From the NCBI GenBank assembly GCA_903926075.1, contig CAIYHQ010000109.1, positions 1 to 43,412 on the forward strand: a stretch of 43,412 nucleotides of DNA, in the 5' to 3' direction. The notes under the pieces are model-generated. The model did no database searches. It was not told where the DNA came from and worked only from the letters and a program-made list of their open reading frames with translations. The DNA comes from an uncultured Methanomicrobiales archaeon. Its GTDB lineage: Archaea; Halobacteriota; Methanomicrobia; Methanomicrobiales; Methanospirillaceae. Below, in pieces: positions 13,335 to 20,057 of this stretch. Position numbers and translations under genes: made by a program. Each line of letters begins with the position of its first letter. Position 1 is the first letter of the stretch.

Positions 13335-14336
13335 TTATTGAAAAACTTTCGATAATTCAACAAGTGAGAACCATCTATCTGGATCGGTATGCCAGGCATT
13401 TATTTTCAGGTTACATGGCCGGATAGTATCTTCTATCCTTTTACGACTGAATTTTCGGGAGATTTCGGTAAAAATTGATTCACCCTTCTTAATATGAACT
13501 GTAAGAGGGATCTTCTCGAAAATCACGGTAACAGGCCGGTTAGCAACGAGGTGCATCTCAATCTGTTCACGCCCTGTATTATAAAAAGCAAGATGATCGA
13601 AATCATCCAACTCGAAATCTGCTGATACTTCCCTGTTAATGACATTAAGTATGTTTTTATTAAATTCTGCAGTGATTCCAAGGGAGTCATTGTATGCCGC
13701 TTCAAGAATGACGGGATCTTTTACCATATCAATGCCTAGGAGAAAACGGTCTCCGGGATTCATCGCCCTGCTGACATCGCAAAAGAGTGTATACATCTCT
13801 TCATCTGTGAAATTTCCAATAGTACTTCCAAGAAGGATGAATATCGTATTTTCAACGTGTGGCAGATGATGGAGATGACGTGTAAAATCGGCCACATATC
13901 CAAGAACCTGGATCCGGGGAAATTGAGAAGTTAGACATCTTGCTGCCTCATACAGGGCAGATTCTGAAACATCAAACGCAATATACCTGATACCTTCTCC
14001 CTGTAGATAGGAAGATGCCCTTATCAGCCGTGCAATTTTCGTGTCTGATCCAGAACCCATTTCTACCAGGTCTATCTGCGAGGAGGAACCAATGATATAG
14101 GGTGCAATATTCTCAAGTATCGAGATTTCAGTCCTGGTAAGGTAATATTCGGGCAGGGTACAAATCTCTTCAAAGAGCTGTGAACCATTTAAATCGTAAA
14201 AATACTTACTTGGGATATATTTCTTTTTTCCTGTCATTCCCAGTGTAATATCCTGAACGAGATGGTCTGCAAAGGAGTAGTCAAGATAGTTATAAATTTC
14301 ACATCTGGAGTTCAGGACTTGTTTTTTTCCTTTCAT
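13335..14336 (-). CDS. egtD: L-histidine N-alpha-methyltransferase (EgtD)
   Basis: A 333-residue SAM-dependent enzyme that trimethylates the alpha-amino group of histidine to hercynine, the first step to ergothioneine. The family signatures are seen in order: YIPSKYFYDLNGSQLFEEIC (residues 40-59), PEYYLTRTE, the SAM loop VEMGSGSDTKIARL (91-104), FDVSESAL (121-128), LGSTIGNFTDEE (169-180) and HIKKGESIFTEISRKF (281-296). In the characterised mycobacterial enzyme, Asn, Glu and Ser at the equivalents of Asn175, Glu291 and Ser293 bind histidine, and all three are kept here. The length is normal. It is the last gene of an operon, starting 12 bases after the fusion enzyme that would use its product. 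Confidence 0.93.
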   Translation of the reverse strand: MKGKKQVLNSRCEIYNYLDYSFADHLVQDITLGMTGKKKYIPSKYFYDLNGSQLFEEICTLPEYYLTRTEISILENIAPYIIGSSSQIDLVEMGSGSDTKIARLIRASSYLQGEGIRYIAFDVSESALYEAARCLTSQFPRIQVLGYVADFTRHLHHLPHVENTIFILLGSTIGNFTDEEMYTLFCDVSRAMNPGDRFLLGIDMVKDPVILEAAYNDSLGITAEFNKNILNVINREVSADFELDDFDHLAFYNTGREQIEMHLVANRPVTVIFEKIPLTVHIKKGESIFTEISRKFSRKRIEDTIRPCNLKINAWHTDPDRWFSLVELSKVFQ

Positions 14337-14348
14337 TATTTTTCTCTT

Positions 14349-17300
14349 TTACCGGCAGGTGACAAACCTCACCAGGGGTTTTTGTTCTGTGACAAGAACT
14401 TGCAATTCCTGGAGAAATCTATCAACTTCTTCACAGGTTGAATGAATACCCAGAGATATACGGATTGAGCAGTGCACTTCTTCATCTGATAAATTCATGG
14501 CACACAGTATATGTGAGGGTTTAGGAGACCCTGAATGGCAGGCCGACCCGGCAGATATATCAATTCCTCTCTGGTCCAGGGCGAGCACAAGAGACTCTCC
14601 ACGGTAGCCAGGGAGGTACATATTGAGCGTATTGGGCAGTCTCCTGGTCGGGTGGCCGTTTAACCGTGCAGCAGGCAGGATCTCACGTATCCCCTGTAGG
14701 AGGCGGTCTCTTAAGGAGAGAATTTCATCTGTTTGCATAAGGTGTGTCCTTGCCAGTTCTGCCGCCTTTCCAAGACCCGCAATACCTGCAACATTTTCGG
14801 TACCTGAACGAATCCCACCTTCCTGTTCACCACCATGCAGAAGAATATCGATGTTGGTGCCCTTTTTCATGAATAAAGCACCTACACCTTTAGGGCCATA
14901 AATTTTATGACCAGATAGTGAGAGAAAATCAATACCAAGATCAACAACGTCGATAGGGATCTTACCAATTGCCTGGGTTGCATCAGTGTGAAACAATGCC
15001 CCGTTTTGATGAGCGATTGTGCAGAGTTCGCGTATAGGCATTACTGTCCCGGTCTCGTTGTTGGCCGCCATAATTGAAACGAGAAGTGTATCAAGGGTAA
15101 TCACGGCCTTAAGATCCTCAGGTCTTACCATGCCGGTCACGTCTACAGGTAGGAAAGTCACCCGGAACCCATGCTCAGCGAGCCATCTGCATGGTTCAAG
15201 GACAGATGAGTGTTCAACAGCAGATGTGATGATATGACGCCTGTCGCTATTCCAGTTAGCAAAAGCGAGACCCTTGATGATAGTATTGTTAGCTTCAGTA
15301 CAACAACCGGTAAAGATTATTCTTCTTGCAGTGCAGCCCAACAACTGGGCAAGGGATCGTCGGGATGCCTCAACCGCGGTCCTCGCTTCTCTTCCCTCCC
15401 GGTAGATGCTTGAAGGATTCCCGAAACTGAGAGAGAGGTATGGCTTCATGGCTTCGAATACTGCGGGATGGACTGGAGTCGTTGCATTGTTATCGAAGTA
15501 TATACGGGTCACAGGTATTCTCTGTTCAGTGATAACAGGTGCCTCTTCCAGTTCCCCGCTGCAAATTGAAACCCTCCCAATTTGACTTTCTTCCTTTGTC
15601 ACCTCGCAGAGAAGCACTTTGTAAACTGGGAATCCGGATATTGGGTCATAATTATTGAGATCGGTGAGGAGGTTTACGTTTCCATCCTGCCAGGCTTCTG
15701 GACCGACATGGCATCCTCCTCCCATATTTGCCTCGATAACCCCTTGGATGATATCATCAGTGACGATTGCCCTTAGTCGGACTTCACCCCGTGGGCTCCT
15801 TACAACCACCCGGTCTCCATTATTAATACTCCTTACTGCTGCATCCCTGGTATTGAGGGTTACGGTAGGCTCTGGGCGTTCCTTAAGTAATCCCCTGATC
15901 CCATGATGTTGTGCATGGAAATCAGTAGTGACTCTTGCCCCTGAATTAAAGATAAGTGGGTATTTCTTTGCCAAATCTGGACGCGAGACTGGACTCTCTG
16001 ATGGTTCAGTGTATTCCGGGAGTGGACTATACCCGTTCTCCTCTAGAATTGTAGACCAGATCTCAAATTTTCCAGTGGGCGTATCAAAACCAGGTCTTCC
16101 ATCAGGCCGAAGAAGACCTTTCTCCCATTTCTTATACCCGGTTATATCGGTGGGTGAAATGACAGTTCCACCTGCATTCTTCACATCATCAAGCGAGAAC
16201 CCGGATCCTTTTAGTACCCGGTGTAGCACATCCTCCTCGGTTTCTGGGAAGAGAGGGCCGTAACCGAGGCGTTTTGCCAGTTCACCCATGATTACAAGGT
16301 CATTTCTTGCCTCACCTCGGGGAGGAATAACTCGTTCCCTCAAGCGGAATATCGGGCCATAGGTCATGTATGAATAATTTTCATAGAGCGTTGTTGCAGG
16401 GAGAACAAGGTCAGCGTACGCCGCATCAGCGGTAAGGTGGCGATCAATGCATACCAGAAAATCAAGGCTGTTCAGGGTCTCCCTCCACACCGGAGTCTGG
16501 GGCCATGAAATGAGAAGAGATCCAGCCTGGATTATCAGCCCTCTGATGCGGTAAGGCCTGCCTTCTAACACTGATTCCGGAAGTGCAATTGCATGTGACT
16601 CTTTACGGTATGCGGTATAGAGGGGAAACCTGTCTGTCCCTATAGCTTTTGAGAGATCTGGATTTGAAAGATAATCAGATCGATTAATGGGAAATTGATT
16701 GCCGGGCATTGTGAAGCACCGGCCGCCCGGAACATCAAGCTGGCCTGCAAGGGCCCAGAGAACAATGGCGGCCCGGATTGCCTGCACACCACTGTTACTA
16801 TACTCAATACCTGCATACATCGCATATGTAGCCCCGTTGGAATCTGCAATCCTCCGGGCAAGAGATATTATCGTTTCACCTGGAATTCCCGTTATCTTCT
16901 CTACTACCTCAGGCCGATAATGCTGGACAAGGTTTGAGAAATCACTAAATCCATGTGTCCAGTTCTTCACGAACTCCTCATTATAGAGTTCTTCTGTAAT
17001 GAGTACATTGCACATTCCCAGGGCAAGTGCACCATCAGTGCCAGGGCGAACAGGTACCCATTCTGCATTGCAGAGTTCAACGGTTTTTGTCCTCCTTGGG
17101 TCGATCACTATCACATCCGCACCGCGTTTCCTGGCCTCCAGGATCTTTTTCAGGGTAAGCGGAGGTGAATCAGTTGCCGGGTTGGTCCCCCAAACTACTA
17201 TCAGGTTTGCATTTTCATAATCAGAATAGGTGTTAATATGCATCCGTCCCATCGTTACATGTGGAGCAATCATGGCAAATGAGACATAACAAAGTGCCCC

Positions 17301-17744
17301 TACACCCATGGTATTGGGCGAACCATAGGGAAAGAGGACACTTGACGCCGATGAAACTGCGACATCCCGTGGTTGGTAGACATCACAGTGTGATAGTTCG
17401 AAACTGCCGGAACCAGTGTAAATTGCCATCGCTTCAGGACCGGATTCTTCCCGAATTATCTTCATCCTCTCAACAATGATGTCATACGCCTCGTCCCAAC
17501 TAATCTGTTCGAATTCATAAGTACCCTTTTTACCGATACGTTTTAAGGGATGGAGGACCCGGTCATCTGAATAGACCATTTCAGGGGAGTGTTCGCCAAG
17601 CTTACAGATAATGCCCAGTTCTGAATTTTCATCAGCCCTTACAGCGGCAATTCTCCCCTCATTGTCATAATTAACAACGATGCCACACCCAGCAGAACAA
17701 ATACCACAAATGGCCCGCTTTTCTTCAAATTCGAATTTAGCCAT
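14349..17744 (-). CDS. Metallopterin-dependent ergothioneine synthase: molybdopterin oxidoreductase fused to cysteine desulfurase
   Basis: A 1131-residue two-part enzyme. Residues 1-715 are a DMSO-reductase-family molybdo/tungstopterin protein with a [4Fe-4S] motif (Cys13, Cys16, Cys20, Cys47), the MGD-binding VVWGTNPATDSPP, VIVIDPRRTKTVEL and VRPGTDGALALGM segments, and a C-terminal dinucleotide-binding domain (VTLNTRDA, NGDRVVVRSPRGEV). Cys152 in GALCY is a candidate metal ligand. Residues 745-1131 are a NifS/IscS-type desulfurase with EHSSV, SGHK (PLP-Lys947) and SAGSACHSG (persulfide Cys1069). This architecture is that of the enzyme reported from Caldithrix abyssi, where the desulfurase passes sulfur from cysteine to the metallopterin module, which puts it on trimethylhistidine without O2. 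Neighbouring EgtD supports the same role. The substrate is inferred, not proved. Confidence 0.9.
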   Translation of the reverse strand: MAKFEFEEKRAICGICSAGCGIVVNYDNEGRIAAVRADENSELGIICKLGEHSPEMVYSDDRVLHPLKRIGKKGTYEFEQISWDEAYDIIVERMKIIREESGPEAMAIYTGSGSFELSHCDVYQPRDVAVSSASSVLFPYGSPNTMGVGALCYVSFAMIAPHVTMGRMHINTYSDYENANLIVVWGTNPATDSPPLTLKKILEARKRGADVIVIDPRRTKTVELCNAEWVPVRPGTDGALALGMCNVLITEELYNEEFVKNWTHGFSDFSNLVQHYRPEVVEKITGIPGETIISLARRIADSNGATYAMYAGIEYSNSGVQAIRAAIVLWALAGQLDVPGGRCFTMPGNQFPINRSDYLSNPDLSKAIGTDRFPLYTAYRKESHAIALPESVLEGRPYRIRGLIIQAGSLLISWPQTPVWRETLNSLDFLVCIDRHLTADAAYADLVLPATTLYENYSYMTYGPIFRLRERVIPPRGEARNDLVIMGELAKRLGYGPLFPETEEDVLHRVLKGSGFSLDDVKNAGGTVISPTDITGYKKWEKGLLRPDGRPGFDTPTGKFEIWSTILEENGYSPLPEYTEPSESPVSRPDLAKKYPLIFNSGARVTTDFHAQHHGIRGLLKERPEPTVTLNTRDAAVRSINNGDRVVVRSPRGEVRLRAIVTDDIIQGVIEANMGGGCHVGPEAWQDGNVNLLTDLNNYDPISGFPVYKVLLCEVTKEESQIGRVSICSGELEEAPVITEQRIPVTRIYFDNNATTPVHPAVFEAMKPYLSLSFGNPSSIYREGREARTAVEASRRSLAQLLGCTARRIIFTGCCTEANNTIIKGLAFANWNSDRRHIITSAVEHSSVLEPCRWLAEHGFRVTFLPVDVTGMVRPEDLKAVITLDTLLVSIMAANNETGTVMPIRELCTIAHQNGALFHTDATQAIGKIPIDVVDLGIDFLSLSGHKIYGPKGVGALFMKKGTNIDILLHGGEQEGGIRSGTENVAGIAGLGKAAELARTHLMQTDEILSLRDRLLQGIREILPAARLNGHPTRRLPNTLNMYLPGYRGESLVLALDQRGIDISAGSACHSGSPKPSHILCAMNLSDEEVHCSIRISLGIHSTCEEVDRFLQELQVLVTEQKPLVRFVTCR

Positions 17745-17755
17745 ATAAGTTTTTC

Positions 17756-19471
17756 CTAACTATGTTCAATCTGAGTTACATCAAGCATTATAGTCCGGTC
17801 CATTCTACTCGCTACATGTGACGAATGCGTAATACAGATTATGGTCTGATTCTTCATAATCGAGAACAGGTCGTCAAGAATTTGTTCTTCAGTAACACTA
17901 TCCAGCCCTGATGTAAACTCATCCGCAATCAGAACCTGTGGTACACGGATGAGGGCACGAGCGAGGGAAATACGTTGTTGCTGACCTTTTGAAAGTGAGA
18001 GACCTTCAACATTAAGGACAGTATCAGCCTTGTCAGGGAGTGCATTAATAAAATCACTAATATGAAGATTTTCAAGAAGGGAGGTGAAGATAAGGTCATC
18101 AGAGATAAACCACCCCATCTCGATATTATCCCTGACACTGAGCCTGAAAATATGAGAATTCTGACTTGCATAGGAGAAGAATGTATAGAAAAAATGGGGT
18201 GGAAAAGAGCAAATATCCTTTCCTCCAAATAATATTATACCTGAATCCGGTTTAATCAGCCCAAGAAGGAGACGGGCAAATGTTGTCTTTCCAAATCCGC
18301 TTGGTGCCATAATGGCAACTTTTTCTCCAGGATTAATGACAAGGTTCAGACAGCTAAATATTTTTTTCCCTGAAGGATAAGTAAATGCAACATCCCTGAA
18401 CTCTATCGCTCCAGAATCAGGTGTCTGTTCAATCCTGACAGGAGGTAATTCTATCTTTGGATACGCATCAAGTATCTCATCGATGCGATCTATCGAGGGT
18501 ACAACTGATAAACTTCTTATAGAGGAATAGGCAAGGGACGTGATATATCTTGAGCAATAAACCATAACCTGACTGAATGCAACCAAAACCCCGACTGTTG
18601 CGCCAGCAGCATGATAACAAATAAAAATAGCACCAATGATGATAGGTAACACGTTCATTATGCGGGAAAAACGATCAAGTGTTGCCCAGACAGAATCCCT
18701 CGACCAAACCGCCCGGATCTGGGCGTTACAGTATTCCAGTCCCTTTTTATTAAAACGTTCCTGGAACGTTGATTCCTGTTGATATACCCTGATTTCGGAT
18801 TCTCCATCAAGAATATCCTGGATAAGATCATTTCTTTCTGAATTTTTATTCTGTGCAATCCGGACATTTCTGACAATAAACTTGTACTTTAAGGCCGATA
18901 CCAAAAAATATATTGAAAAAAATATGCAGCATAATGTAGCAAGCATCCAGTTCAGATAAAACATCCAGATGATAAAGGCAATCGTAATTGTCAGATAAAT
19001 AAAATTAAATAATACATAATCTAAAAAAAATTCACCTATCCTGAAGAGATCATTTGCAAACCTTGTAATGATATCTGCAGAATTATAATGATCAAAAAAA
19101 ATTGGATCCTTGGAAAGTATCTGGCCGATAAGTCTTCTGCTTTTGGCATAAACTGCCTTTTCTGTTACTATAATTGCAGATTTGACCACTACAAGATAAA
19201 TTCGATAAGCAAACAACAGGGAAACGATAATTTCCAGTGAATATAGCCCGACGAGGTAAATATTTTTCTGGGGAATTGCAATATCGATCAACTGCTGTGT
19301 CAGGTAAGGACACAGAATGTCAATAATGCTTACAGTTATTGTTAGAAGAAAAAATAGGAGAAGCCTTTTTCTCTCAGTTGCGAGTTCACTCTTAAAGAAA
19401 AAGATAACCTTTTTCACTGAATGAAAGAAATTTTCCTCGATTTGAGTGGATTCAACATTATTCTTAATCAT
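17756..19471 (-). CDS. ABC exporter half-transporter (membrane + ATPase fused) of the ergothioneine operon
   Basis: 571 residues: a six-helix exporter-type membrane domain (about 35-320) followed by an ABC ATPase domain (about 345-571). The nucleotide-binding motifs are Walker A MAPSGFGKTT (first Gly replaced by Ala), Q-loop SYASQNSHIF, signature LSLSKGQQQR (LSGGQ changed to LSKGQ), Walker B VLIADEFTSGLD and the H-loop ICITHSSH. The catalytic Glu and His are present, so it should hydrolyse ATP as a homodimer. It is 11 bases upstream of the fusion enzyme on the same strand, so export or uptake of ergothioneine or hercynine is a reasonable inference. Its ATG overlaps the stop of a decayed kinase remnant (ATGA). 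No strong ribosome-binding site is seen. Confidence 0.87.
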   Translation of the reverse strand: MIKNNVESTQIEENFFHSVKKVIFFFKSELATERKRLLLFFLLTITVSIIDILCPYLTQQLIDIAIPQKNIYLVGLYSLEIIVSLLFAYRIYLVVVKSAIIVTEKAVYAKSRRLIGQILSKDPIFFDHYNSADIITRFANDLFRIGEFFLDYVLFNFIYLTITIAFIIWMFYLNWMLATLCCIFFSIYFLVSALKYKFIVRNVRIAQNKNSERNDLIQDILDGESEIRVYQQESTFQERFNKKGLEYCNAQIRAVWSRDSVWATLDRFSRIMNVLPIIIGAIFICYHAAGATVGVLVAFSQVMVYCSRYITSLAYSSIRSLSVVPSIDRIDEILDAYPKIELPPVRIEQTPDSGAIEFRDVAFTYPSGKKIFSCLNLVINPGEKVAIMAPSGFGKTTFARLLLGLIKPDSGIILFGGKDICSFPPHFFYTFFSYASQNSHIFRLSVRDNIEMGWFISDDLIFTSLLENLHISDFINALPDKADTVLNVEGLSLSKGQQQRISLARALIRVPQVLIADEFTSGLDSVTEEQILDDLFSIMKNQTIICITHSSHVASRMDRTIMLDVTQIEHS

Positions 19472-20057
19472 TCAGTATTTCCAAAGTGCCACTTTCCCTT
19501 CGGCACTGTTATTTCAAACCGTGCCCCATCCCAGTGATCTTCCCAAATCCACATTCAAAAAATTTTTCCTTCCCTTCGGCCGGTACACCCTCGCCATCAT
19601 CTTTACATACAATCGTATGATAATCGCTGCTGGGGATTCCTCTGAAATAATCCAGAATTCCCAATCATAAGTGAAATCAGCCATTATGCGATATTTTTCC
19701 TCGCTCGCCTCCTTTCTGTAGATGAAAATCAGCACCTTCGTTAAGCGCCTTGATAACCACTTCTTCGCGTCCTTTACCAGTAAAGATGATAAACGGGGGG
19801 TATCCCCTAATATTTTGAGTTGCTTAAGAAATGTTATCCCATCCATCCCCTGGCATCCGGTAATCTGATATATTGACATCGAAGCATTGTTGTTCGAGGA
19901 GATCTAATGTAACATATACCGAATCTATATTTGTAACTGAAAATTCACCTGATTTTTCAAGAAACAGTCTTTCGATCTCGAGAAGAATAGGTTCGTCATC
20001 AACATAGAGAACCCTGATTGGCTCTGTATCAATAGTCATTGTCCTTCGAACCGCCAC
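19468..20057 (-). pseudogene. Shattered response-regulator/histidine-kinase gene
   Basis: In three frames one can read the parts of a longer protein. A receiver-domain start (IRVLYVDDEPILLEIERLFLE) runs to ISDYRMPG. After a frameshift comes [18 protein letters not shown]. After a jump comes a PAS-domain start ([20 protein letters not shown]). Finally, after a large deletion and more frameshifts, the end of a kinase ATPase domain appears (FECGFGK, DGARFEITVPKGKWHF, stop 19470-19468). The receiver Asp and phospho-site are partly present, but no continuous protein is possible. Its 5' end overlaps the 3' end of the intact kinase upstream. The last codon overlaps the ABC exporter ATG. Confidence 0.8.

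Follow-up and report, generated by a model that had tools for sequence, protein, structure and literature searches.

A predicted metallopterin-dependent ergothioneine synthase encoded next to EgtD in a Methanomicrobiales archaeon, and related modules lacking the desulfurase

Introduction

Metallopterin-dependent ergothioneine synthases (MES) were described as a class in which a metallopterin module is fused to a cysteine desulfurase and co-encoded with the histidine methyltransferase EgtD (Beliaeva & Seebeck, 2022; PMC9516567). In that paper, MES was counted in 55 genomes, four MES enzymes were active in E. coli, one of them euryarchaeal, and the MES of Caldithrix abyssi produced ergothioneine in E. 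coli whether Mo or W was supplied, the supplementation making no difference. Lys952, Cys153, Cys1074, and Cys1135 were essential in the C. abyssi enzyme, and Cys1097 was non-essential, with an approximately twofold effect. Two inactive C. abyssi chains did not complement each other, and in-chain sulfur transfer was found to be obligatory. A desulfurase mutant of this enzyme still had an active metal site, which swapped sulfur between ergothioneine and trimethylhistidine (PMC9516567). Our literature search for MES in methanogens returned nothing beyond this paper and two papers mentioning that work.

Here, we describe a MES-like gene in the window, i.e., the whole stretch of 43,412 nucleotides that was analyzed, from an uncultured Methanomicrobiales archaeon. 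By analogy with C. abyssi, this gene very probably encodes a MES that works with the adjacent EgtD via a Cys1069/Cys1130/Cys152 relay. It is another member of the class published in 2022, and in this sense already known. The features of the locus are as follows.

13335..14336, minus strand: EgtD, L-histidine N-alpha-methyltransferase, 333 aa (TIGR03438, PF10017), the sole EgtD of the genome
14349..17744, minus strand: predicted MES, with a metallopterin module (residues 1 to about 720) and a NifS-type cysteine desulfurase (about 747-1131), from the ORF, domains, conservation, AlphaFold2, and Foldseek
15585..17744, minus strand: metallopterin (bis-MGD) module, residues 1-720, from the alignment to 2e7z and conservation in 64/64 relatives
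within the metallopterin module, minus strand: predicted [4Fe-4S] ligands Cys13, Cys16, Cys20, and Cys47 and metal ligand Cys152, from the 2e7z alignment and 64/64 relatives
14352..15506, minus strand: cysteine desulfurase domain, residues 747-1131, with Lys947, Cys1069, Cys1092, and Cys1130, from NCBIfam, Pfam, conservation, and the C. abyssi alignment
within the desulfurase domain, minus strand: predicted PLP Lys947, persulfide Cys1069, Cys1092, and C-terminal relay Cys1130, matching C. abyssi Lys952, Cys1074, Cys1097, and Cys1135
17756..19471, minus strand: ABC-type half-exporter, 571 aa, 11 bp upstream of the MES gene, from NCBIfam, Pfam, and locus comparison

Results

The minus-strand ORF at 14349-17744 starts with ATG and encodes 1131 aa with no internal stops. 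Pfam places Molybdopterin (PF00384) at residues 62-492 and Molydop_binding (PF01568) at 601-710, and the N-terminus has significant NCBIfam matches to the formate dehydrogenase/DMSO reductase family. On the same chain, Aminotran_5 spans residues 748-1110 with 371 of 371 profile positions. The best NCBIfam match of the ORF is NifS (TIGR03402; residues 748-1122, positions 1-374 of 379), with a score of 475.5 bits that lies below the curated equivalog cut-off of 530.75. These results agree with the first-pass annotation, made from the sequence alone, which had described, with no strand given, one 1131-residue chain combining a complete metallopterin enzyme with a full-length desulfurase rather than a remnant. 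A PDB sequence search gave acetylene hydratase 2e7z for the first part (E = 4e-69) and cysteine desulfurases for the second. An assembly chimera was ruled out, since the same fusion is present as an intact single frame in dozens of genomes, many of them unrelated.

About 85,000 genomes were scanned for relatives; this yielded 255 candidates, and the loci of the best 80 of these were read. In the 64 full-length fused relatives from this set, Cys13, Cys16, Cys20, Cys47, Cys120, and Cys152 were invariant, Lys947 was kept in 63 (it is masked in the remaining one), Cys1069 in 63, and Cys1130 in 61. Almost all of these relatives have Cys1130 as their second-to-last residue, as does the window protein, which ends in VTCR. 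The exceptions of one relative (L122) at positions 947, 1069, and 1130 fall in a masked, frame-broken stretch, and a Cys152 to Ser exchange is confined to a decayed fragment (L043). The functional residues that had been named for both halves are thus conserved in 63-64 of 64 relatives, and this includes Cys152, whose conservation in the clade the first-pass annotation had named beforehand as a point on which its reading could fail. That residue list was correct as far as it went; it overlooked the second relay cysteine, Cys1130. Two further cysteines of the metallopterin module are near-invariant, namely Cys120 (64/64) and Cys713 (63/64 full-length relatives; Gly in the stand-alone relative L153), and we found no discussion of them in the available text of PMC9516567.

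The C. abyssi MES in our set (L084, isolate HyVt-577, 1136 aa) has Cys153, Lys952, Cys1074, Cys1097, and Cys1135 at exactly the published numbers, and these align with Cys152, Lys947, Cys1069, Cys1092, and Cys1130 of the window protein. The two enzymes also share the order of the two domains, a similar length (1131 vs. 1136 residues), all catalytic and relay residues, and a co-encoded histidine methyltransferase. They differ in that the host of the window protein is archaeal, the identity is about 66% and 56% in the two halves, and the activity of the window protein is predicted. Acetylene hydratase 2e7z shares the fold of the N-terminal module, the four Fe-S cysteines, and the Cys metal ligand; in the two alignments that the first-pass annotation had proposed, Cys152 falls on the metal-ligand Cys of 2e7z as well as on Cys153 of C. 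abyssi. However, the catalytic Asp that follows the second cluster Cys of acetylene hydratase is Ser17 in the window protein (Pro is the consensus among relatives), and acetylene hydratase has no desulfurase. An identity as acetylene hydratase was ruled out, given the missing Asp and the presence of a desulfurase and EgtD. Compared with NifS/IscS, the desulfurase has the complete fold, the PLP Lys, and the mobile-loop Cys, but it is fused, and its C-terminus is extended by a VTCR tail that bears the conserved relay Cys.

The AlphaFold2 model (51-row alignment) had a mean pLDDT of 84.4 and a pTM of 0.76, with both domains well ordered and very low confidence at 736-742, in the junction, and at 1127-1131, the tail with Cys1130. 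Among PDB entries, Foldseek matched the first part best to 2e7z (TM 0.84 by target length) and the second part to NifS/IscS/Nfs1 (TM 0.88-0.95 by target). Counted from Cys713 to residue 750, the junction region is 37 residues long in the window protein and 35 to 48 among relatives, a spread of 13 residues. It had been suggested that the short junction limits the geometry; with a length that varies in this way and a poorly modelled segment at 736-742, such a limit was not borne out. As expected for a flexible tether, which the junction may be, model confidence there was very low.

The EgtD gene starts 12 bp past the MES stop codon, and its product scores 340 bits against the TIGR03438 equivalog cut-off of 290.9. 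It is the single EgtD of the window genome, in which no TIGR03440 match (EgtB) was found. The ABC half-exporter gene is possibly co-transcribed with the MES gene; it may serve to export a product, or it may have no connection with MES. The MES loci of the closest relatives contain no comparable gene, which leaves a conserved role of the exporter in the system unsupported. Further upstream, between a PAS kinase gene and the ABC gene, a frame-broken remnant of a response-regulator/histidine-kinase gene occupies window positions 19440-20040 (minus strand). A 121-aa ORF at 19514-19879 is out of frame and is probably no gene.

The best 80 of the 255 candidates came from Methanomicrobiales, anammox Planctomycetes, Nitrospirota, Zixibacteria, Deltaproteobacteria, Chromatiaceae, KSB1, and others. 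The count of candidates suggests that the distribution of MES extends far beyond the 55 genomes counted in 2022. Of 81 related loci, 54 have EgtD no more than 3 kb from MES, 52 of them on the same strand. The closest relatives among the best 80 were MES of Methanoculleus sp. FWC-SCC1 and other Methanomicrobiales (L052, L053, L054, L058), with at best 77% identity over the metallopterin module. They share EgtD directly downstream and the penultimate Cys, whereas the ABC exporter gene 11 bp upstream is present in the window alone. In the tree, the window protein groups with the Methanomicrobiales MES (SH-aLRT 100) within an archaeal MES clade (99). Within its own family, a full-length match was present in the window genome only (1 of 108 genomes), and no MES was found in the other 107. 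This patchy distribution would fit transfer and loss. With the window MES, a further Methanomicrobiales lineage would be capable of making ergothioneine independently of O2. Genome G284, which belongs to the same order as the window genome, has a MES whose metallopterin module is identical to the one in Methanomicrobiaceae archaeon M17C-73-02 (L054); the window genome is thus most likely a member of Methanomicrobiales from outside Methanomicrobiaceae.

Several relatives have the metallopterin module without the desulfurase. In three Methanophagales genomes (G309, G273, and G374; loci L039-L041), the module is about 728 aa long, is 70-71% identical, and keeps all cluster cysteines and Cys152, and EgtD begins at the module end or overlaps it. 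The dN/dS values among these modules were 0.13-0.22, indicating purifying selection. The three genomes are incomplete drafts; in two of them the sole desulfurase found was SufS-like (33-34% identity), and no desulfurase was found in the third. A stand-alone module with EgtD directly after it is also present in two genomes of a Nitrospirota order (L111, L153), and modules without an adjacent EgtD were found in Rhabdochromatium marinum (L115), in a member of the same family (L168), and in a deltaproteobacterium (L091). R. marinum has an EgtB-EgtD pair at another locus (L140). Beside the stand-alone modules there was no separate desulfurase gene and no tblastn remnant of one. In the tree, they fall into four distinct groups, each placed within fused enzymes, which suggests that the fused desulfurase was lost repeatedly, about four separate times. 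A further Methanophagales genome (G377, family f10) has a decayed MES metallopterin module with a truncated EgtD (L043).

Discussion

By analogy with the C. abyssi enzyme, the archaeal protein would act as follows. EgtD would methylate histidine to N-alpha-trimethylhistidine, and the desulfurase would load sulfur onto Cys1069. Cys1130, on the flexible tail at the C-terminus, would then take over the sulfur and deliver it to the Mo/W bis-MGD center held by Cys152, and this center would insert it into the imidazole C2 to give ergothioneine without O2. The order Cys1069, Cys1130, metal center is presumed for the C. abyssi enzyme and the window protein alike. The window MES is predicted to be specific for trimethylhistidine; its identity to a C. 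abyssi MES (66% in the N-terminal and 56% in the C-terminal half) speaks against taking this for certain. The first-pass annotation had considered persulfide hand-over to the Mo/W site within one polypeptide plausible, and this is supported by the C. abyssi work (PMC9516567) and by the match of all residues tested there. Its reading of the enzyme was right; what it missed was that the system had already been published, that the product is ergothioneine, and that EgtD is encoded next door.

A MES-like enzyme might instead sulfurize another heterocycle, with EgtD supplying a different methylated imidazole. Of the 81 related loci, 14 lack a nearby EgtD even though their sequence extends more than 1.5 kb to either side; some members of the family may therefore have changed their substrate. 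The MES authors suggest that further uncharacterized Mo enzymes may sulfurize heterocycles (PMC9516567). For the window protein we regard this as very unlikely, because its EgtD is adjacent and the only one in the genome, and every residue required in the C. abyssi MES is kept. It is scarcely credible that the protein is an oxidoreductase or hydratase of the metallopterin type in which the fused desulfurase serves for a single maturation of the enzyme's own cofactor, comparable to a formate dehydrogenase sulfurase acting in cis. Mo cofactors are sulfurated by cysteine desulfurases in other systems (cited in PMC9516567), but the metal site of the C. abyssi desulfurase mutant still exchanges sulfur, which means that turnover, not maturation, requires the desulfurase. 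The Ser in place of the acetylene hydratase Asp and the linkage to EgtD also argue against this reading.

With the window gene read as a MES, its stand-alone relatives are of greater interest than the gene itself. They are at odds with the obligatory in-chain transfer published for the C. abyssi MES, and no mention of them turned up when the main text of PMC9516567 was searched for such terms. It is about as likely as not that some lineages (Methanophagales and Nitrospirota, perhaps also Chromatiaceae and the deltaproteobacterium) synthesize ergothioneine with a MES module that lacks the desulfurase. If they do, the module would draw sulfur in trans or from inorganic sulfide or polysulfide, and a persulfide relay of the C. 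abyssi type would not be a universal requirement; the in-chain relay may thus be dispensable in some MES. The stand-alone modules are natural material for studying how the metal center obtains sulfur without a fused desulfurase. The Nitrospirota order also contains stand-alone paralogues of the MES metallopterin module (L156 and L158), which are about 40% identical and 737-750 aa long.
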